From NCBI RefSeq assembly GCF_004357905.1, contig NZ_SMTT01000004.1, forward strand, positions 62,001 to 126,000: a stretch of DNA of 64,000 bases, given 5' to 3'. A program made the translations under genes and the position numbers. The notes beneath the pieces were generated by a model. It had not been told where the DNA came from. It did not search any database and was given only the letters and a program-made list of their open reading frames with translations. Source of the stretch: Campylobacter lari. GTDB lineage: Bacteria > Campylobacterota > Campylobacteria > Campylobacterales > Campylobacteraceae. Within the stretch, counting starts at the first letter, position 1, and every line of letters begins with the position of its first letter. This document shows positions 5,401-36,246 of this stretch, in pieces.

Positions 5401-6898
5401 TATCCATCCTTTTTATCCATTTAATAAGCCCATAAAAGCTAATAGCAAGTATTACCAAAAAAGGAGCAGCACTCAAAACAACTGCAACTTTTAAGGTATT
5501 TAAATCTGCATTTATATAAAGCATTGCTAGAGGAATTAATCCAAGCATAATACACCAAAAAACTTTTAAATATTTACTAGGATTTTCACTATCTATTTTT
5601 GTGCTTACACAAGAAATAGTAAATGCAGTAGCATCCATATGAGAAGCCAAAAATACCATCATAAGCAGGAAATAAAAAAGAGCAAAAATAGTACCAAATG
5701 GTAGTGTTTTTACCAATGCTACCACTCCAGCTTCTCCAGCATTTGAACTAATAAAATTTGGAACATCTAAGATTCCACTTTGAAAAATATCTATTGCATA
5801 TGAACTCAAAACTCCAAAGAAAAACCAAGTCCCAATACATCCACCCACAATAAGACCAAAAATTACTTGACGAATGGTCCTTCCTTTAGAAATTTTTGTC
5901 ACAAAAATACTAACAGCAGGAGTGTAAGTAATCCAATAAAGCCAATAAAAAACTGTCCAATCAGAATTAAAGCTACTTACACCAGTAATATCATTATATA
6001 AGCTCATTGAAACATAATTACTAAAAAATACCCCTATACTATTTATTATATTATTTAATATAAATACACTATCTCCTAAAATAAATACCAATATTGCAAA
6101 CACAAAACACAAGATACAAGATATTTTAGCAAGTTTTGCCATACCACTTGATAATCCAACAAAACTAGAAAAGGTAAAAACAGCTGTAACAATAGCTAAA
6201 AGAATAAATTTTAAATAAAAACCATCATTAATATCAAAAATTCCAGAAAGTCCAGCACTAATTGTAATTATAGAAAGGGTTGTAGTAAGCACAAGTCCAC
6301 CAAAAGTACTAAATAAAAACACAACATCGATGATTTTATCAAGCACTATATTTTGATTAATATGCAAGATATTTGCTATTAAACTTGAAATTTTTAAATT
6401 TTTATTTTTAAAAATATAAAAATGAAAACACATTGCAATAGAACTTAAAGCATATACAGCCCAAGGCGTAATACCCCAATGCAAATACACAAAAGAAGTT
6501 GCACTTCTTAAAGCTTCTGTAGATTTTGGAGTAATATTTAATCCAGGTGCTAAATAATAATATGCCCATTCCATAAATGCCCAATACATAGTAGCAGATC
6601 CAAGTCCTGCACAAATAAACATAAAAATCCAAGCAGTATTTGAATAAGGATTTATCCCATCGCCTAATTTAATATTACCTATTTTAGAAAAAGCCAAGTA
6701 GAAAATAAAAACTACACAAATAAACTCAAAAAGTTGAACAAATGAGCCAAACATATGTGTAAGCTTGCTAAAAAGAAAATTTGCTACTTCTAAAGCTTTA
6801 CTAGGATTTATAAGTAAAATTACAATCACCATAAAAACCGCCAAAATAGATGTCACTATCAAAAATAAATCATAAGTTTTTTGATTATTTTTTTGCAT
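5381..6898 (-). CDS. BCCT family transporter
   Basis: A 505-residue membrane protein with about twelve helices. The BCCT signature is clear: DWTVFYWLYWITYTPAVSIF then ISKGRTIRQVI, where the family norm is FYWAWWISWSPFVG. Members take up betaine, carnitine, choline or similar compounds with sodium or protons. One of the aromatic residues of the signature box is changed (Tyr for Trp in ITYTP), so the substrate may be unusual. The start MQKNNQKTYDL at 6898 has AGGAG upstream. It is co-transcribed with the enolase-superfamily gene, which it overlaps. No osmotic-stress context is visible; a catabolic uptake role is inferred. Confidence 0.85.
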   Translation of the reverse strand: MQKNNQKTYDLFLIVTSILAVFMVIVILLINPSKALEVANFLFSKLTHMFGSFVQLFEFICVVFIFYLAFSKIGNIKLGDGINPYSNTAWIFMFICAGLGSATMYWAFMEWAYYYLAPGLNITPKSTEALRSATSFVYLHWGITPWAVYALSSIAMCFHFYIFKNKNLKISSLIANILHINQNIVLDKIIDVVFLFSTFGGLVLTTTLSIITISAGLSGIFDINDGFYLKFILLAIVTAVFTFSSFVGLSSGMAKLAKISCILCFVFAILVFILGDSVFILNNIINSIGVFFSNYVSMSLYNDITGVSSFNSDWTVFYWLYWITYTPAVSIFVTKISKGRTIRQVIFGLIVGGCIGTWFFFGVLSSYAIDIFQSGILDVPNFISSNAGEAGVVALVKTLPFGTIFALFYFLLMMVFLASHMDATAFTISCVSTKIDSENPSKYLKVFWCIMLGLIPLAMLYINADLNTLKVAVVLSAAPFLVILAISFYGLIKWIKRMDNENYKG

Positions 6899-27730: not shown

Positions 27731-27746
27731 AAGATTTTTTAATCTT
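27731..27746 (-). terminator. weak terminator after the hsd operon
   Basis: On the minus strand AAGATT, loop AAAA, AATCTT followed by further T (TTTT). The stem is short and AT-only and overlaps the end of the 182-residue gene, so efficiency is doubtful. Confidence 0.4.
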
Positions 27747-28287
27747 GATTTTTAATAAATTCGCTTTTATTAAATTCTTTAAAATTATACCAAGCTAAGA
27801 CATTATAAACAAATCCTATAACAAAAAATACAAATCCTATTAAAATAGGCAATGTTAAAAAACCATAAAAATACATTTTACAAACTTTTATAAAATAAAA
27901 CTGATTAGCTACTCTAGCTATCTCATAAAAAATTCTTTTTAAGAATTTAAAATATAGCAAACAAAATAAAATATGTATAGCCAACAAAAACGGAGTAAAA
28001 AACATTAATAAAAAATATTCTTCATTTAAAAAAACATAATAAAAAAATAAAATCATAAAATAAAGTAAAATAAAATAAAAAAATAAAATAAAAAGTGTTA
28101 TAAAATAATTCTTGAATAAATTCTTAGCACTAGTATAAGTTTTTAATTGATATAAAACTATCATATATAATGTCGCGCTAATTACACTTAAAAAACCCAT
28201 ATAAGGCATAAAAGAACATAAATAAAAAGTTAAATAAAAAAGGGCTATAACCCTCACATTTTTAGATTTCTTTTTTATATCTATCAT
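27739..28287 (-). CDS. integral membrane protein of the hsd locus, function unknown
   Basis: A 182-residue protein with about five hydrophobic segments (IALFYLTFYLCSFMPYMGFL, a long aromatic stretch at 65-85, LLMFFTPFLLAIHILFCLL, LPILIGFVFFVIGFVY). It is rich in Phe and Tyr and has no motif I recognise. Its start overlaps the hsdM stop by 4 bases, so it is translated with hsdM and is the last gene of the restriction locus. Membrane proteins are sometimes linked to defence effectors, but nothing in the sequence shows such a role. Confidence 0.7.
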   Translation of the reverse strand: MIDIKKKSKNVRVIALFYLTFYLCSFMPYMGFLSVISATLYMIVLYQLKTYTSAKNLFKNYFITLFILFFYFILLYFMILFFYYVFLNEEYFLLMFFTPFLLAIHILFCLLYFKFLKRIFYEIARVANQFYFIKVCKMYFYGFLTLPILIGFVFFVIGFVYNVLAWYNFKEFNKSEFIKNQD

Positions 28288-29786
28288 TTATTACCTCTTA
28301 AACTAGCTTGAATTTTTTCAAAAAGCATTTTTGCTTGTTTTTGATTTTGCTCTAACTCGCTTAAAATTTCCTCTACTTCACGCAAAGTTTTTTCTTCTTT
28401 TACGTTTGGGTTTTTAGCACTTAAATCATAATTTCTTTCTTCAAGTTCTTTTTTACTTACCAAATAAGAATTAGCCGTGATTTTTCTTTCTTTATAACAT
28501 TTTAAAAATTCTTGCAAATGCGTGTATTCTAAAGGTTTGTTTTTAGTCAATTTAAAAGGTGGCACAAGCTCATAGTAATATACACTTTCATCATTTTCAC
28601 CACAAATACTTCTTTGTCCTTTAGAAAAAAAAAGCACATTAGTTTTTACCGCACTATAAGGCAAAAACACCCCACTTGGCAAGCTTAAAACACATTCAAG
28701 ATTAAAATTTTCTAGCAAGTCTTTTTTTACACTCACAAAGGCATTTGAATTTTGAAAAAGCACTCCTTCAGGCACTACTATGGCACACCTTCCATTGTTT
28801 TTCAAAGACTTTAAAATATGTTGTAAAAACAAAAGCTCAGTAGCGTTTGATTTTACAGGAAAGTTATTTTGAATTTGATCTTTTTCTTTACCACCAAAAG
28901 GAGGATTTGCCAAAATCACTTCGTATTTTTCATTTTCAGTTATGTCTGTGATTTTTTTATTTAGAGTATTGGTTTTGATGATATTTGGGGACTTAACCTC
29001 ATGTAAAATCATATTCATCACACCCATTGCATAACTAAGTGGAGTTTTTTCTTTACCGAACAAGGCATCATTTTGTAAAAATTCAAGTTCTTCCACACTC
29101 AAATTTGCTTTTTTCTTTTTTGCCCTATCTTCATAAAGAATATGCAAAAAACTCTCTACTAAAAACCCACAACTCCCACACGCAGGATCATAAATTCTCT
29201 CTTTTGCTTTAGGGTCTAGCACCTCCACCATGGCTCTAACCAAAGGTCTTGGGGTATAAAACTCCCCACTATTTCCCCCATCGCTTCCCATGTCTTTTAA
29301 AAGCTTTTCATAAACCTCACCTAAAGCAAACACATCACTTTCTTTGCTAAAACTTAGCTCATCGACTAAATTTATAACTTCTCTTAAAGTATGGCCATTA
29401 GCTATGCGGTTGTCTATAAATTCAAAAATTCCACCTATCTTATACTCTATGCTTTTGAAATTTTCATTATCTTTAAAACTTTTTAGGTATGGAAAAAGCT
29501 CATCATTCACAAAGCTTAGCAAATCACTTCCACTTAAAGCATTTTTTACATCAAGCTTTCCTTCGCTTGTTTTAGGTGCTGCCCAAGCTCTCCAACTGAA
29601 TTTTTCTTGCAAAATAGCCTTATAAGGCTTTTCATCTAACTCAGCTTCTAGCTTTAGCTCTTCTTCATAATCATCTAAAAATTTCAAAAAAAGCACCCAA
29701 CTAATCTGCTCACTATAATGCATAGCACCGCTTATGCCATCATCTCTTCTTAGAATATCTGTGATTTTATCGATTTTACCTTGCAT
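28284..29786 (-). CDS. hsdM: type I restriction-modification methyltransferase subunit
   Basis: HsdM adds methyl groups to adenine in the target set by HsdS. The 500-residue protein has the N-terminal helical HsdM domain (DILRRDDGISGAMHYSEQIS), the AdoMet motif I region DPACGSCGFLVES and the catalytic NPPF in ILANPPFGGKEKD. A C-terminal coiled tail (EILSELEQNQKQ) is usual for contact with HsdS. The start ATG follows the fic stop codon with no gap, so fic and hsdM are tightly coupled. Unlike most type I loci, hsdM and hsdS are separated, here by fic. Confidence 0.93.
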   Translation of the reverse strand: MQGKIDKITDILRRDDGISGAMHYSEQISWVLFLKFLDDYEEELKLEAELDEKPYKAILQEKFSWRAWAAPKTSEGKLDVKNALSGSDLLSFVNDELFPYLKSFKDNENFKSIEYKIGGIFEFIDNRIANGHTLREVINLVDELSFSKESDVFALGEVYEKLLKDMGSDGGNSGEFYTPRPLVRAMVEVLDPKAKERIYDPACGSCGFLVESFLHILYEDRAKKKKANLSVEELEFLQNDALFGKEKTPLSYAMGVMNMILHEVKSPNIIKTNTLNKKITDITENEKYEVILANPPFGGKEKDQIQNNFPVKSNATELLFLQHILKSLKNNGRCAIVVPEGVLFQNSNAFVSVKKDLLENFNLECVLSLPSGVFLPYSAVKTNVLFFSKGQRSICGENDESVYYYELVPPFKLTKNKPLEYTHLQEFLKCYKERKITANSYLVSKKELEERNYDLSAKNPNVKEEKTLREVEEILSELEQNQKQAKMLFEKIQASLRGNK

Positions 29787-30857
29787 TTAAAAAATTCCCT
29801 TTCTAAAAAGTCTTAAAAGTTCTATATTAATATAATAATTATTTCTACCCATTTTAATGCACTCTAGCACCCCTAAATTTTCACAAATTTTAAGGTATTT
29901 TGAGGCACTTTGCCTAGAAATATCTAATTTATTTATCAAAAAGTCTATCTTTGTATAAGGATGAGAAAACAAAAGCTCCACAAAGTCTTTGCTGTAAAAA
30001 TTCGTTTTATTTTGCAAAATTTCACCTACATTAGACATCATTTTTTCTATTATAGTAATGGTTTTTATCGTTTTTATAGCAGTTTGCTCTACACCTTTGA
30101 GTATATATTCTATCCATTCTAAAATTGCACCTTCATCACGTACTTTTTGTAAAAGATTGTAATACTCTTCTTTGTTATTTACTATATAAGCGCTTAAATA
30201 CAAGATAGGCAAATCAAGCAAGCCTTTATAAACTAAATAAAGTATATTGATAATCCTGCCTGTTCTACCATTACCATCGTAAAATGGATGTATGCTTTCA
30301 AACTGATAATGAATGATTGCCATTTTTACCAAAAAATCAAGTTCATCTAAAGTATCATCGTTGATGTATCGCTCCAAATTTCCCATAAGTTCTTGTATAT
30401 CACTAGGATTTTGCGGGGGTGTGTGTTTGATTTCTCCTGTGGTAGGATTTATCAGCGTAGTTCCGCTTTGTTTTCTAAAACCTGCATTATTTCTTTCTAG
30501 TCTTTTTTGAATTTCTAAAATATGTGCATTTCTTAATAATTGCTCTTTTTTTAAAAGCTCATATCCTTTTTTTAAAGCATTTTCATAGTCTTTTACTTCT
30601 TTTACCGCTCTTGTAAGTTTACTTTCATCGATTTGAGATAAAAAAAGTTCATCGTGAGTGGTAATAATATTTTCTATCTCGCTAGAATCTTTAGCTTCTT
30701 GCAAGATCAAAGCATTGATTAATATATTTGGATTAGGCATGCTTTTGCTAAATCCATTTAACTCCGCTAATTTTCTCGAAGCCCTAATGATGAGACCATA
30801 AATATTTGCATTTAATTCTATATCTAAAGGAAGTTTTGGTGGTATGAATTCTTTCAT
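29787..30857 (-). CDS. Fic-domain protein with winged-helix C-terminus
   Basis: Fic proteins usually transfer AMP from ATP to a protein hydroxyl. The 356-residue protein has the intact motif HPFYDGNGRTGR at 190-201, with the catalytic His. The inhibitory motif SSEIEN (S58, E62, N63) precedes the core, the class II arrangement in which Glu blocks ATP until released. The last 70 residues look like a winged helix (KIDFLINKLDISRQSASKYLKICENLGV), so it may bind DNA. The start at 30857 has GGAAAAATT before it; the longer frame to 30938 would run through the repeat array and is unlikely. It lies between hsdS and hsdM. Target protein unknown. Confidence 0.88.
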   Translation of the reverse strand: MKEFIPPKLPLDIELNANIYGLIIRASRKLAELNGFSKSMPNPNILINALILQEAKDSSEIENIITTHDELFLSQIDESKLTRAVKEVKDYENALKKGYELLKKEQLLRNAHILEIQKRLERNNAGFRKQSGTTLINPTTGEIKHTPPQNPSDIQELMGNLERYINDDTLDELDFLVKMAIIHYQFESIHPFYDGNGRTGRIINILYLVYKGLLDLPILYLSAYIVNNKEEYYNLLQKVRDEGAILEWIEYILKGVEQTAIKTIKTITIIEKMMSNVGEILQNKTNFYSKDFVELLFSHPYTKIDFLINKLDISRQSASKYLKICENLGVLECIKMGRNNYYINIELLRLFRKGIF

Positions 30858-30866
30858 AATTTTTCC

Positions 30867-30980
30867 ATATGTTAAAATTTTTTTAAAATTTTTAACATTA
30901 TAAAAAAATATGTTAAAAAAATCAAAAATTTTTAACATATCTAGTCTTTATGTTAAAATTTGATAAAAATTTTAACATTT
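30867..30980. repeat. array of three evenly spaced inverted repeats
   Basis: Six half-sites: ATGTTAAAA at 30869, 30910 and 30950, each answered by TTTTAACAT ending at 30898, 30938 and 30978. Each pair forms a palindrome of 29-30 bases, and the pairs recur every 40-41 bases. The array fills the whole gap between the hsdS stop and the fic start. This looks like a multi-site operator; the winged helix of the neighbouring Fic protein is a candidate binder. Confidence 0.8.
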
Positions 30981-32211
30981 ATAATCTTCCTTGAAAAGCT
31001 TTATCTAGCAAGGATTTTTTAAGCTCTTGTAGATTTTTTATCTGTGCTTGATAGTTTTGCTTTAAATTTTTTACATGAGAAGAAAGCTCATCTAAATGCG
31101 AAGCGATTTGCTCTTGTTCTTTGAGTGGGGGTAGTGGGATTTGTAGAGATTTGATAAAGTCTACTGATACACCCTTGACAGTAGCACCTATACCGTTTTC
31201 TATTAAAAAATCTTTGTTTTTCTTAAAAAAATAAAATAAATATTTTTTATTCAGTGATTTGTGTGGTAATATTCCCTTTAAGTCTTGATTAATAGCTAAA
31301 GTGTCTTTTACTAAACAAACTTTCCCTAATCCAACCCTAGTTGCAATTAATATAAAATCCTGATTAATAATATTTGTAGAACTATTGTCTAAGCCTAAGT
31401 TTGTAATACGAAATTCTGTATCTTCAATAGTTTCTGTATTCATGTCTCTTACAGTAGCCCATTTAATCGTTCCATTTTCCCAATATTGTTTTATTTGTTT
31501 CGATGGAGTGCCGCCACCTATAATTTCGCAAATCTCCCCTAAGCTTTTCCATTCCCAACCTTGCGGGAGTTTGTAGTTTTCCTTAGTATTATCCTTTAAA
31601 GGGTTAAAAGCTTTTTGCAAGGCACTTTGCATTAACTCATCTAAATTTAGTAAATTCTGCTCTAAGATTTTTATACTCTCATCTATCTTTGCAAAACTTT
31701 CATCTAAAATCCCCACTATCCTTTCTTGCTCTTTGAGCGGCGGCAACGGAATTTGAAATTTCTCTAAATCTACAAACCTTAAATTATTTATGTTAGAACC
31801 TTTAGAAATATTGAAAATATAATTTTTATAAGAATCGCTTCTTAAATAATAAGCTATAAATTTATGGCAAATATTTAGATTGATAATTCTAAATAATCCA
31901 CAAAAAGCCCCAAAAGTAAAATCATTTAAATTGTTTAAAAGTATATTTTTGCCTACAATATGTTTACTACCGCTACTCATTGCAAATAATATATCATTGT
32001 TTTGAATAATCTTATCAACTACTAATTCTTTGGGAATGATTTGTAGTTCATCTAAATTCAATTCATTTTGAATATTATTTGCTCTTAACAAATAAACAGA
32101 TTTTTCATTCTTTGTGGATAATAGTTGCTCTTTTTTGTAAGAAACGCCCCTTATAAAAAAACCTATCTCACCAAGCTTTTTAACTTCCCAACCCTGCGGT
32201 AATTTTATCAT
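30979..32211 (-). CDS. hsdS: type I restriction-modification specificity subunit
   Basis: HsdS recognises the DNA target of the methyltransferase and nuclease. The 410-residue protein has the two-fold plan of the family: each half opens with LPQGWE (residues 4 and about 217) and closes with a conserved helix start, IPLPPLKEQERIVGILDE and IPLPPLKEQEQIASHLDE. The two target-recognition domains between them differ from each other, so the site is bipartite. It ends KSLLDKAFQGRL. The ATG overlaps the stop of the ATPase gene by one base. No truncated second hsdS or inversion partner is in the window. Confidence 0.93.
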   Translation of the reverse strand: MIKLPQGWEVKKLGEIGFFIRGVSYKKEQLLSTKNEKSVYLLRANNIQNELNLDELQIIPKELVVDKIIQNNDILFAMSSGSKHIVGKNILLNNLNDFTFGAFCGLFRIINLNICHKFIAYYLRSDSYKNYIFNISKGSNINNLRFVDLEKFQIPLPPLKEQERIVGILDESFAKIDESIKILEQNLLNLDELMQSALQKAFNPLKDNTKENYKLPQGWEWKSLGEICEIIGGGTPSKQIKQYWENGTIKWATVRDMNTETIEDTEFRITNLGLDNSSTNIINQDFILIATRVGLGKVCLVKDTLAINQDLKGILPHKSLNKKYLFYFFKKNKDFLIENGIGATVKGVSVDFIKSLQIPLPPLKEQEQIASHLDELSSHVKNLKQNYQAQIKNLQELKKSLLDKAFQGRL

Positions 32212-33944
32212 TATTTTTTTACCTTGCTTTTCAAAAAATTAAACATCGTTACTATATCTTCTGAAATTTCTTCTTTTGGAATACTAAAAATAACTTGTCT
32301 CATTTTGTTTATATCATCTCCATTATCATCACTATACAATCCTTGAATAATATCCTTGCAATCTAATTCTTTTAAAGAATTAATATTATCCAAGTTATCA
32401 TCTTTTTTTATATGATCATTTTTAGCTAGATTATCATTATTTATCAAATTTAAAACATTGTATTTTTCTAGCATAGTATATGAGAGTAAATAATTTTCTA
32501 TTTCTCTTCTTTTCCAGACTCTCAAATAAAAACAATTTGCATAATCATTAAGACTTTTTAGGAGTGATTTTAAGCCAGATGGTTTTAATTCGTTATCTAT
32601 TGAACTTAATATATAATTATCCTTATCACATATTATAAAAATATTTTTACTATTAAAATGTTTATTTTCTAATATTTTAATATAATCCTTACACCATTCA
32701 AGTTTTTTATTTCCAATAGTATCAGTATTTCTACTATATCCAGAAGGACACTTAAAAGGTTGTATTTGATTTAATATTTTCAAATCATCTTCATTATCAA
32801 TTTTAATTTCACATAACATTTTAAAAATCTCCCAATCATTCAAATCATCTATCAAAACAATATTTTCACATTTTGATGCTATTTGATATTGATACATTTT
32901 ATTTGATGTGAAATTATCTAGCCTTTTGCATAATTCATTAAAAATATCTTTACTTTGTAATTTTCCATTGTCAACCAAATAAATATCTTCTATATTTTTT
33001 CTCACAATACTTTCTGTAATATGTGATGTAGATATACAATAACCTTTAATGTCTTCCAATCGACTCCATAATTTTTCAATATTTTTATAATGTACATGTG
33101 AATCAATCTCATCAAATAAAAAAAGAGTATTTTCTTTATCGAAAATATCTAAAATAGCATAAATAGCTAAAAGCTGATACTCGCCATCACTTAAATCATC
33201 AAATTTAAGGTCGTTATCCAAAGTAAGTGTTACTGTGTTTATATCAATATTTCTATCATTTTGAGTTGCATTACTTAAAAAAGTAAAAATTTCAGAGCTA
33301 TCTTTGCCAAAAATTTCATTAGCTTGATTTATGGAAAAATTTATACCTCGCTTTATTATAGGATAAGGTTCACTATTGAAATCTTCATAGTAATGTTGAT
33401 CAAATTTTTTTTCAGCTATCTTCTCTAGTATTTTATAATCTATAGTATCTCTTATAATTCTTTTTACAACGCCTTTTGCTTCTTGCATCAATTCAATTTC
33501 AAGTCTTCGAATATAATCAGATAGAATTCTGAATTTAAAATATAAACTTATATTCTCAATATTTATATTTTTTTCCATTAAAAAGCTTTTTACCAAAGAG
33601 TCTTGCTTTGTAGAGATGGAAAAAAATACTAATAAAATTATCCAATTTTTATCAAAATAAAAAGAATGAACAACTTTTCGATTATTATCGTAGTTCTTTT
33701 TATTTCGCATCTTTTCTTTTTTATGTTTTTTAAAAATTTCAGTAAATTTTTCATTTTGTCCAGAAGAAAAACAAATCACATTAAAATTGTCATCTTGTAT
33801 ATATTTTTCAAAAATAGATTCTAGAATTCTTGACTTCCCACAACCATTTTCACCAACTAGCAAAATATTTGCACTATTTTCCAAATCTATATGCTGCGAA
33901 ACTATACCTTTATACTCACCTATTTCTATTCTTTTATCCTGCAT
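32211..33944 (-). CDS. AAA (ABC-type) ATPase with TOPRIM/DUF4435-like C-terminus
   Basis: A 577-residue protein in the place of the rlo genes of C. jejuni type I loci. The N-terminal part is an SMC/OLD-type ATPase: Walker A GENGCGKS at 31-38, signature LSDGEYQ near 255, Walker B TLFLFDEID near 275 and a switch His in CISTSH. From about 355 on, IVLIDDLNDWEIF, FIICDKDNY and WKRREIENYLL resemble a TOPRIM-like DUF4435 domain, though the usual first catalytic Glu is Asp. This order occurs in OLD nucleases and in fused forms of the PARIS defence system. I start it at 33944, where GGGAGA precedes ATG; the frame reaches 33968. It overlaps hsdR by 11 bases. Confidence 0.78.
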   Translation of the reverse strand: MQDKRIEIGEYKGIVSQHIDLENSANILLVGENGCGKSRILESIFEKYIQDDNFNVICFSSGQNEKFTEIFKKHKKEKMRNKKNYDNNRKVVHSFYFDKNWIILLVFFSISTKQDSLVKSFLMEKNINIENISLYFKFRILSDYIRRLEIELMQEAKGVVKRIIRDTIDYKILEKIAEKKFDQHYYEDFNSEPYPIIKRGINFSINQANEIFGKDSSEIFTFLSNATQNDRNIDINTVTLTLDNDLKFDDLSDGEYQLLAIYAILDIFDKENTLFLFDEIDSHVHYKNIEKLWSRLEDIKGYCISTSHITESIVRKNIEDIYLVDNGKLQSKDIFNELCKRLDNFTSNKMYQYQIASKCENIVLIDDLNDWEIFKMLCEIKIDNEDDLKILNQIQPFKCPSGYSRNTDTIGNKKLEWCKDYIKILENKHFNSKNIFIICDKDNYILSSIDNELKPSGLKSLLKSLNDYANCFYLRVWKRREIENYLLSYTMLEKYNVLNLINNDNLAKNDHIKKDDNLDNINSLKELDCKDIIQGLYSDDNGDDINKMRQVIFSIPKEEISEDIVTMFNFLKSKVKK

Positions 33945-36246
33945 AAATCTCCCTTTGTAAATCATCAATGCATTGTTTTAAATTTTCCATACCTTCAAAT
34001 TCACTCACTAGCTCTTTTACACTACCTAAAGAGCTAAGATCTATAAGTGTTTTTAACCCACTATCAAAGTCTTTTATACCATACTCTTGATACCTATCTA
34101 GTAAAAATTCCACAAGCTTTAAGGCTTTTTCTTTTTGGAAGCGTTTTAAAAATGCACTATTTTTTACATTTAGCACGCGTTCATGGCGTGTTTTTATCTC
34201 GCTGTTAAAGCTTAAGTGTGCTAACACATCATACACATCGCAGTCTTTTTGCTCAAAAATCACTGTCAATTCTTCCAAAACCTGCTCGCTTATGCGGTCT
34301 TTTTCAAGTTTTTGTAAAAATTCTTTCCTACTTGCTTGGTTACTCCAAATCTCGCGTAACTTTACTTCATCATCATAAAATTCTGCTAGCTTTCCTACTA
34401 AAAATTCCAAAAATTCTTTTGTGCTAAGTGGCTTGTCGCTATCTCCTATGTAGCTTGTCGTTATATCAAGCACTTTTAGTTTTGTGCCTTTTAAATGCAC
34501 AGTGACTTCTTTTTGCTTGGTTGCTTCTTTAGGGTTGCTTTGCTCTCTTTTGTTTTGTATAGTTTTTACCTCGGTTTTTTCTTCATCTTTGATCTGCTCG
34601 CCATCCCATTTAGGATCATAAAAAAGTCTTGTTACTCCGGTAAAATCTAGTATAGTAAAAAAGTCTTTTCCCTCATACGCCCTAGTGCCTCTTCCGATGA
34701 TTTGCTTAAATTCTATGATAGAACCTATATTTGCCAAAAGCACTATGTTGCGGACATTTCTAGCATCTACTCCTGTGGTTAGCATTTTAGAACTAGTGAG
34801 TATTACAGGATAGCTTTTGTCATTATCTTGAAACTGCTTTAAGTATTCAAGCCCTATTTTACCCTCATCACTTGTAACCCTCACGCAGTAGTCATCTCTT
34901 TTTACACTTTTAAATTTATCAATGGCTCTTTTTACTTCACTTGCATGAGCTTGGTTAGCACAAAAGATGATGGTTTTGTCCATAGGGTTGATGAGCTTTA
35001 AAATTTCTTTAGCTAGAAAATCGTTGTATTGAGGTAAGTGAATATTTCTTTCAAATTCATTGATCTTATAAAAGCCTTTTTCTAACTCACCTTCTATGAT
35101 ATCATCAGGGTTATACACATAGCCTTCACTAAGCGTAGTCGTAACACGCTTAACTTTATAAGGAGTTAAAAAGCCATCTTCTATGCCATCTTTAAGACTA
35201 TACTCATACACACTCCCACCAAAATATCTATAAGTATCTACATTATCGCTTTTTTTAGGTGTAGCAGTAAGCCCTAAATGCGTAGCCGATGAAAAGTACT
35301 CTAGCACCCCTACCCAGCTACCTTCTTCATTCGCTCCACCTCTGTGACATTCATCGATGATGATAAGATCAAAAAAGTCTTTGGGGTATTGTAAGTAGAA
35401 TTTGCTTTCTTGCTCTTCATTAGCGTTTTCTTGTTCTTTTGAATTTGAAGCTAGACTTTGATAAATTCCAAAAAACACATTTGCACTTGTAGGTACTCTA
35501 CCATTATTTTTTCTCAACTCTTGCGCACTCACTGCCACGCAATCGCCCTCTATAGGATTAAACTCTCCTAAAGCTTGATCTCTTAAACTCACCCTATCAC
35601 ATAAAAATAATATCTTAGGTTTTTTGTCTTGATTTGTTTTATTCCACCTAGCTTCAAGCAAACGATAACACAAAGCAAAGGCTATAGTGGTTTTACCTGT
35701 GCCTGTAGCAAGAGTGAGTAAAATTCTATTTTTACCGTTAATCAAAGCTTCTATGACTTTATCAACTGCGATCTTTTGATAATATCTTAATTCTTTTTGG
35801 GGTATGTATAATTCTCGCTGTGATAAAAGCTTGTATTGCCATTCTTTTAAATTTCCATAAATCCTAGCAAAAAGCTCATTTGGGGTTGGAAATTTTTCTA
35901 TATACTCACCGCTTGAAGTTTTTAGGTTGTATTCGTAAATTTTATCGCCATTAGTGCTATATACAAATGCTACATTTAAAATTTTAGCATATTCTATGCC
36001 TTGAGATAAGCCATCTAAAGGATCTTTGCTTTGTTTTTTAGCTTCTATGATAGCAAGATTATTGTTTTGAAATTTCAACAAATAATCTGCAAATTTTCTT
36101 TCGCCTCTTTTATTTCCTATAAGCTTACGCCCATCGGTAAAATAATAATTTCTTATGATATTTTCTTCACTCCAAGAGCTAGTGTGAAGTTTTACATCTA
36201 TGAGTTTAACTCTAGTATCATCTTCTGAAAAATGCTTAAATTCCAT
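33934..36246 (-). CDS. hsdR: type I restriction endonuclease subunit
   Basis: HsdR moves DNA and cuts it at a distance from unmethylated sites. The 770-residue protein has an N-terminal nuclease domain (DYLLKFQNNNLAIIEAKKQ, the E-x-K core), then superfamily 2 helicase motifs: GTGKTTIAFALC, IIIDECHRGG (DEAH type), GLTATPKK and IIGRGTRAYEGKDFFTILDF. The length fits the shorter EcoEI/EcoR124-like R subunits. It is first in the operon hsdR, ATPase, hsdS, fic, hsdM, membrane protein. No break is seen. Confidence 0.93.
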   Translation of the reverse strand: MEFKHFSEDDTRVKLIDVKLHTSSWSEENIIRNYYFTDGRKLIGNKRGERKFADYLLKFQNNNLAIIEAKKQSKDPLDGLSQGIEYAKILNVAFVYSTNGDKIYEYNLKTSSGEYIEKFPTPNELFARIYGNLKEWQYKLLSQRELYIPQKELRYYQKIAVDKVIEALINGKNRILLTLATGTGKTTIAFALCYRLLEARWNKTNQDKKPKILFLCDRVSLRDQALGEFNPIEGDCVAVSAQELRKNNGRVPTSANVFFGIYQSLASNSKEQENANEEQESKFYLQYPKDFFDLIIIDECHRGGANEEGSWVGVLEYFSSATHLGLTATPKKSDNVDTYRYFGGSVYEYSLKDGIEDGFLTPYKVKRVTTTLSEGYVYNPDDIIEGELEKGFYKINEFERNIHLPQYNDFLAKEILKLINPMDKTIIFCANQAHASEVKRAIDKFKSVKRDDYCVRVTSDEGKIGLEYLKQFQDNDKSYPVILTSSKMLTTGVDARNVRNIVLLANIGSIIEFKQIIGRGTRAYEGKDFFTILDFTGVTRLFYDPKWDGEQIKDEEKTEVKTIQNKREQSNPKEATKQKEVTVHLKGTKLKVLDITTSYIGDSDKPLSTKEFLEFLVGKLAEFYDDEVKLREIWSNQASRKEFLQKLEKDRISEQVLEELTVIFEQKDCDVYDVLAHLSFNSEIKTRHERVLNVKNSAFLKRFQKEKALKLVEFLLDRYQEYGIKDFDSGLKTLIDLSSLGSVKELVSEFEGMENLKQCIDDLQREIYAG

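Follow-up and report, generated by a model that had tools for sequence, protein, structure and literature searches.

A candidate operator array of alternating half-sites beside a SoFic-type fic gene in Campylobacter lari

CccR of Yersinia pseudotuberculosis, a Fic toxin with a helix–turn–helix (HTH) domain, acts through an inverted repeat to repress the promoter of its own gene (PMC9755527). A survey published in 2009 noted the winged helix of a Shewanella Fic protein and proposed that Fic-fused HTH domains may regulate fic expression (PMC2686095); autoregulation by Fic-HTH proteins is therefore already known. SoFic is an abortive-infection, anti-phage AMPylator (PMC12249575). Dimerisation has been published for SoFic and EcSofic, and DNA binding by SoFic has been stated as not experimentally shown (PMC10628234). 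The subject here is a stretch of 64 kb from Campylobacter lari (contig NZ_SMTT01000004.1, positions 62,001–126,000; hereafter the window, numbered from its first base), in which an array of inverted repeats fills the gap between hsdS and fic in a type I restriction–modification locus. It is proposed that this array probably serves as the operator for the SoFic-type Fic protein encoded beside it, and that fic and the abutting hsdM gene would be repressed through it.

The array and its internal promoter

The array is built of two half-sites, ATGTTAAAA and TTTTAACAT, that alternate in orientation, and a promoter is predicted within it:

30869–30978, unstranded: candidate operator array of six alternating half-sites in three palindromes, extending from the end of hsdS almost to the start of fic
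30869–30898 (30 bp), unstranded: fic-proximal palindrome, ATGTTAAAA-N12-TTTTAACAT, whose TTTTAACAT half-site overlaps the −10 box
30910–30938 (29 bp), unstranded: middle palindrome, with the −35 box in its centre
30950–30978 (29 bp), unstranded: hsdS-proximal palindrome, immediately adjacent to the stop codon of hsdS
30897–30925, minus strand: predicted promoter (pattern match), TTGATT (30920–30925)-17-TATAAT (30897–30902), reading into fic

The plus-strand starts of ATGTTAAAA are 30869, 30910 and 30950, and those of TTTTAACAT are 30890, 30930 and 30970. These coordinates bear out an earlier note on this DNA, which had described three palindromes of 29–30 bp, 40–41 bp apart and made of six half-sites, filling the hsdS–fic gap; the palindrome-to-palindrome intervals are 41 and 40 bp. 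A finer regularity than this spacing is the alternation of the half-sites themselves, with start-to-start steps of 21, 20, 20, 20 and 20 bp. Across the whole 1.54-Mb genome (50 contigs), ATGTTAAAA-N5-15-TTTTAACAT occurs only at the three places in the array, and the reversed control pattern gave no match. A stricter three-half-site pattern was found in 42 of 397 Campylobacterota genomes, compared with 0 of 397 for its reversed control. The array is thus not a product of chance in an AT-rich gap. The half-site search that the earlier note had called for, elsewhere in the genome and at other hsd loci, accordingly gave no other genomic copy, while related loci carry the repeats.

The note had also expected a promoter at this position, and a sigma70-type promoter-like sequence is indeed found within the array ahead of fic–hsdM. 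The exact pattern TTGATT-N17-TATAAT has a single match in the window, which lies inside the array, and the half-site overlapped by the −10 box is the first of the fic-proximal palindrome when read towards fic. Among 15 relatives with an array 5′ of fic, TATAATG lies at −44 from the fic start in all 15, the −10 box overlaps a half-site in all 15, and the full TTGATT-16/17-TATAAT is kept in 13. The ten closest fic-less arrays are without a TTGATT-16/17-TATAAT promoter, and two more distant fic-less arrays (L083 and L084) contain TATAAT but not the full promoter. A protein bound to the array would therefore cover the promoter. Self-repression of fic–hsdM is proposed because the promoter overlaps the array, is conserved with fic and is missing from the closest fic-less arrays; together with the CccR precedent, this overlap suggests autorepression.

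In the proposed mechanism, each palindrome would be bound by one SoFic dimer, with a winged helix on either half-site and about two helical turns from one to the other, and neighbouring dimers would line one face of the DNA. The dimers would cover the −35 box at the middle palindrome, and the −10 box and start region at the fic-proximal palindrome, and in doing so would repress fic and the abutting hsdM. Such feedback would keep a toxic AMPylator scarce in uninfected cells. Fic levels would then go up once the array is vacated, for instance if protein is lost in the course of infection or drawn off by further copies of the site.

The spacing of half-site starts is equally rigid within palindromes (19.84 ± 0.36 bp) and between them (20.08 ± 0.35 bp), which suits proteins on one DNA face and not a row of RNA hairpins; cooperative, same-face binding is suggested by this spacing. 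That the repeats instead act as RNA, whether as hairpins, a terminator or a small RNA antitoxin resembling the repeat RNAs of type III toxin–antitoxin systems, appears most improbable. The palindromes are able to form hairpins, and in many loci they begin at, or close to, the end of an hsdS, fic or yopX reading frame, but RNA hairpins do not require rigid spacing between palindromes, the stems are A+T-rich, the half-site letters track the DNA-recognition helix of a protein and a promoter lies inside the array. A role as a convergent terminator was rejected on account of the same rigid inter-palindrome spacing and internal promoter.

The Fic protein and the half-site code

The gene next to the array, and the part of it predicted to contact DNA, are as follows:

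29787–30857, minus strand: fic, encoding a class II SoFic-type AMPylator with a C-terminal winged helix (from motifs, Pfam, PADLOC and predicted structure)
29877–29915, minus strand: codons of the predicted recognition helix (residues 315–327, RQSASKYLKICEN)

The encoded protein has the domain composition of SoFic in Pfam (Fic_N, 6.8e-28; Fic, 1.3e-19; SoFic-like_C, 1.2e-19) and matches the PADLOC SoFic model with E = 2.7e-116. It scores 345 of 550 bits with the NCBIfam SoFic equivalog, under the cut-off, and is thus a divergent member of the family. Its catalytic motif, HPFYDGNGRTGR, and inhibitory motif, SSEIEN, fit HPFx[D/E]GNGRxGR and [S/T]xxxE[G/N], respectively. The AlphaFold model (predicted local distance difference test score, pLDDT, 89.5) ends in a C-terminal winged helix with its wing at residues 332–343, and the top Foldseek match of the model in the PDB is Shewanella SoFic (3zcn, TM 0.92), so that it has the SoFic fold. 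The winged helix that had been attributed to this Fic protein is therefore upheld by domain match, model and fold.

Within the recognition helix, R315 is nearly invariant, and residues 314 and 316 track the half-site sequence. The S/T-R-Q helices of Campylobacterota accompany TGTTAAA half-sites, and K/R/Q/H-R-Q helices accompany TGTCGA. R-K helices go with TGGGTA (L138, L160, L280 and L059, where it reads TGGGTACAT; in L276 the related TGAGTA predominates), and R-P helices with TGTAAA(G) (L134, L147, L163 and L165). Counts of these associations carry p-values that are indicative only, because the tests were partly framed after the data had been seen and the loci share ancestry, both of which weigh against the proposed role of Fic. 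Lysine at residue 316 occurs with at least two GGGTA in 4 of 5 cases versus 3 of 37 (p = 0.0015), and glutamine at 316 with TGTTAAA in 15 of 30 versus 0 of 12 (p = 0.003). Among RQ helices, K/R/Q/H at residue 314 occurs with TGTCGA in 8 of 8 cases, compared with 0 of 21 for S/T/A (p = 2e-7). The rule for proline at 316 (exact TGTAAAG in 2 of 4 versus 1 of 38, p = 0.02) is weak by itself, since the automatic exact count misses one-letter variants. The K and P rules were first seen on two loci each, and three later loci fit them: L160, with an RK helix and a GGGTA count of 11, and L163 and L165, with RP helices and TGTAAAG. L131 and L138 make the most clear-cut natural comparison: their Fic proteins are 90% identical but differ by Q versus K at residue 316, and their arrays are TGTTAAA versus TGGGTAAA. 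The candidate role of Fic as the reader of the array, controlling fic–hsdM, is well supported by such comparison.

A generic detector, which scores alternating half-sites without knowledge of the motif, was applied to fic loci with other gene flanks as controls. Arrays were found at 22 of 25 Campylobacterota fic loci versus 0 of 278 control flanks (score at least 3), at 9 of 19 SoFic loci in plasmid and phage records versus 0 of 172 control flanks (score at least 2.7), and at 7 of 16 IMG/VR SoFic loci versus 2 of 58 controls (score at least 2.7). The plasmid and phage records with arrays are from Persicobacter, Aureibacter, Asticcacaulis, Pantoea, Agrobacterium, Mesorhizobium, Ensifer, Nocardiopsis and a phage contig. 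Alternating arrays flanking SoFic genes span Campylobacterota, Bacteroidota, Proteobacteria (E. coli included), an actinobacterium and phage contigs, and array-like matches occur in 280 of 5,426 complete genomes.

Related loci thus carry the repeats, as the earlier note had anticipated. Relatives of fic at 87–99% identity have the array between hsdS and fic. At one locus (L043, about 6147–6490), nine palindromes with 18 half-sites stand there, an array apparently grown by tandem duplication of an 80-bp palindrome pair; another (L045), in a genome that has lost hsd, has kept fic with two palindromes. In other genera, fic genes at 60–67% identity have the same half-sites, placed 5′ in L126 and L127, on both sides in L048 and L118, and 3′, starting at or near the fic stop codon, in L049–L058 (degenerate in L054). 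No array was found beside the genes of four distant plasmid Fic proteins of ~30% identity (L154, L155, L157 and L158), whereas L061, also at about 30% identity, has TTAGTCAA arrays on both sides, and the family boundary of the feature is thus not sharp. A further Fic match, on a Yersinia virulence plasmid (L159), was set aside. In Helicobacter burdigaliensis (L037/L121), fic is broken by internal stops and the upstream array is largely intact.

The E. coli Sofic gene (L294 and L297; helix KRQTASTYL) has an upstream array of about 590 bp, made of 7.4 copies of a 70-bp unit with TGTCGA/TTTAAACA half-sites (TGTCGAT/TTTAAACAT when one base longer). TGTCGA is the half-site expected from a KRQ helix; because the locus and the Pantoea query are homologous, the match speaks for conservation more than it serves as an independent test. 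One further E. coli genome has a SoFic-type TGTCGAT/TTTAAACAT array beside a MobH relaxase gene, without fic (L296, 3001–3107), which is consistent with a relic.

Arrays apart from fic, and the surrounding locus

Several further observations weigh against control of fic by its own product. Arrays with the same half-site stand ahead of hsdM (as in hsdS–array–hsdM loci) or of rhuM–hsdM in genomes that have neither fic nor PF21248, the SoFic winged helix (among them G079, G080, G084, G089, G104, G113, G124, G125, G213 and G219), and upstream of hsdM, palindromes of different half-site types are in some cases combined in one array. Several genera have the array 3′ of the fic gene, in one case between convergent genes, and how an array in that position would occlude the fic promoter is not obvious. 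Moreover, with the genes in the window running in one direction, transcription from upstream may reach hsdM as well.

In four loci, what we take to be a RhuM-like gene occupies the place of fic between array and hsdM (L065, 6899–7927; L070, 6933–7961; L122, 5269–6006; L125, 4667–5704). Arrays also precede 58–60% identical hsdM genes in other bacterial families (G290, G303, G360 and G379), and G360 has fic elsewhere. In Campylobacter and Campylobacter-like prophages, a TGTTAAA array of two palindromes and four half-sites closely follows a yopX-like gene and precedes an ATPase gene by about 113 bp (IMG/VR contigs L182, L183, L185, L187, L194, L195, L201, L202, L205, L206, L216, L217, L226, L230, L232 and L235). 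A similar arrangement is found in G089, G106, G115 and G121; G106 and G115 have both fic and the prophage-type array.

These arrays ahead of hsdM and rhuM–hsdM, after yopX and at a few other sites would be explained if a different protein, either a chromosomal regulator or one linked to hsd, read the array and fic merely adjoined it. G360 points the same way, as its hsdM array, CTATGTTAAA, mismatches the half-site of its own Fic, ATGGGTAAA. Such a reader is nevertheless unlikely: arrays accompany SoFic genes even where hsd genes are missing and in other phyla, a change in the Fic recognition helix goes with a change in the half-site, and among close relatives only arrays with fic have the fic promoter. 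Some fic-less arrays also look decayed; those of G084, G125 and G303 have lost half-sites, as relics of a fic gene that is gained and lost might, but others are perfect. HsdS was rejected as the reader, because its recognition domains vary between loci (33–84% identity) and the half-sites do not.

Between fic and hsdM, several outgroup loci have arrays that combine three or four types of half-site, which would fit marks left by more than one Fic specificity or a region shared by more than one reader. Upstream of hsdM in L274, L276, L278, L280 and L282, neighbouring palindromes differ in their half-sites (ATGTTA, ATGGGTA, ATGTATA, ATGTAAA and ATGTCGAAA). Two three-half-site arrays lie inside an open reading frame of 2707 amino acids in L071 (5957–6003 and 6503–6549), from genome G110, which is without fic. 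Where several unrelated groups of viral contigs (GC 0.34–0.56) match the three-half-site pattern within coding sequences, this was taken as chance or coding constraint.

The size and placement of some arrays bear on a further possibility, namely that the array is a DNA reservoir or silencer, instead of or besides an operator, in which many half-sites hold SoFic bound and inactive. Arrays occur 5′ or 3′ of fic, and the 18 or so half-sites of L043 and the roughly 590 bp of E. coli exceed what promoter occlusion needs. DNA binding by Coxiella CbFic2 alters its dimerisation and activity, although DNA stimulates that activity and does not inhibit it (PMC10628234), and EcSofic toxicity is controlled by contacts of the C-terminal domain (PMC12249575). 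As this support is purely indirect and the array in the window does contain a promoter, a reservoir is considered very unlikely. It is also quite unlikely, though conceivable, that SoFic arrays serve as a sensor besides an operator, with the toxin repressed, perhaps inactive, and titrated by foreign or replicating copies of the half-site. If so, an array such as that of the Campylobacter prophages could let a phage sequester the toxin as a decoy, or copies on a phage could serve the cell as a trigger that frees the fic–hsdM promoter.

Self-repression by Fic, as put forward in the earlier note, remains the likeliest account of the array, given that arrays track the Fic family, half-sites track the recognition helix and the promoter is internal; arrays that are fic-less, lie 3′ of fic or sit in prophages do not fall under it as simply. 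The genes around fic and the array are the following:

27739–28287, minus strand: small membrane-like protein, with a weak DUF996 match, overlapping the end of hsdM
28284–29786, minus strand: hsdM, whose first base directly follows the fic stop codon
30979–32211, minus strand: hsdS, ending at the array
32211–33968, minus strand: AAA ATPase, between hsdR and hsdS
33934–36246, minus strand: hsdR (EcoAI/FtnUII family)

Read along the minus strand, the order is thus hsdR, AAA ATPase, hsdS, array, fic, hsdM and the small membrane-like gene, and the earlier gene assignments (hsdR, ATPase, hsdS, fic with its start at 30857, and hsdM, all on the minus strand) agree with it. With hsdR, hsdM and hsdS present, the locus is of type I. 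Co-transcription of hsdM with fic from the array promoter is probable, and since hsdR, the ATPase gene and hsdS all point towards the array, read-through into hsdM from upstream is possible. Control of fic–hsdM separately from hsdR–hsdS, as the earlier note suggested, is plausible; its idea that the array orders modification before restriction is speculation.

Comparison with known systems

Published work leaves open what keeps SoFic toxins quiet before phage infection (PMC10628234, PMC12249575). The array offers a candidate operator for the whole SoFic family, with a readable code at residues 314 and 316, and the proposal applies to the E. coli SoFic system too, which is already in laboratory use. 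At the locus in the window, one promoter would drive both the gene of an abortive-infection toxin and that of a type I methylase, and two layers of defence would so be linked.

CccR is a class II Fic protein with a C-terminal HTH that represses its own gene and must dimerise to bind DNA (PMC9755527). As in CccR, inverted repeats lie in the gene's own promoter, the array overlapping TTGATT-17-TATAAT ahead of fic. The geometry differs: CccR has a single inverted repeat, AGATAATCAT-N26-ATGATAATCT, with 10-bp arms and a 26-bp spacer, whereas the window has half-sites alternating every ~20 bp in three palindromes with 9-bp arms and 11–12-bp spacers. Furthermore, CccR has low sequence identity to SoFic, is type VI-secreted and stands outside a restriction–modification operon.

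SoFic (Shewanella SO_4266) and EcSofic share family, fold, and inhibitory and catalytic motifs with the window Fic, and the E. coli locus also has an upstream array. No array or operator is mentioned in the published SoFic and EcSofic accounts that were found. EcSofic is described with a downstream 47-aa antitoxin, AS1 (PMC12249575); in the window, where no search aimed at AS1 was made, fic is followed directly by hsdM.

In Phd-Doc and similar autoregulated toxin–antitoxin operators, the gene of a Fido-fold toxin is likewise feedback-repressed through promoter palindromes, but a separate antitoxin binds the DNA, whereas the window Fic has its predicted DNA-binding domain within the toxin. Type III toxin–antitoxin systems differ in that their repeats are free in spacing, unlike the array, and in that their toxin is a ToxN-type RNase and not Fic. 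The C proteins of type II restriction–modification systems resemble the proposed arrangement in controlling a restriction–modification operon through a promoter array, which could set the order of expression. They are small, dedicated HTH regulators; here the locus is of type I, the candidate regulator is an enzyme, Fic, and its target would be the gene of the methylase subunit. Compared with these systems, the alternating array, its spread across the SoFic family, its 3′ placement and the specificity code appear to be new within the searchable literature.
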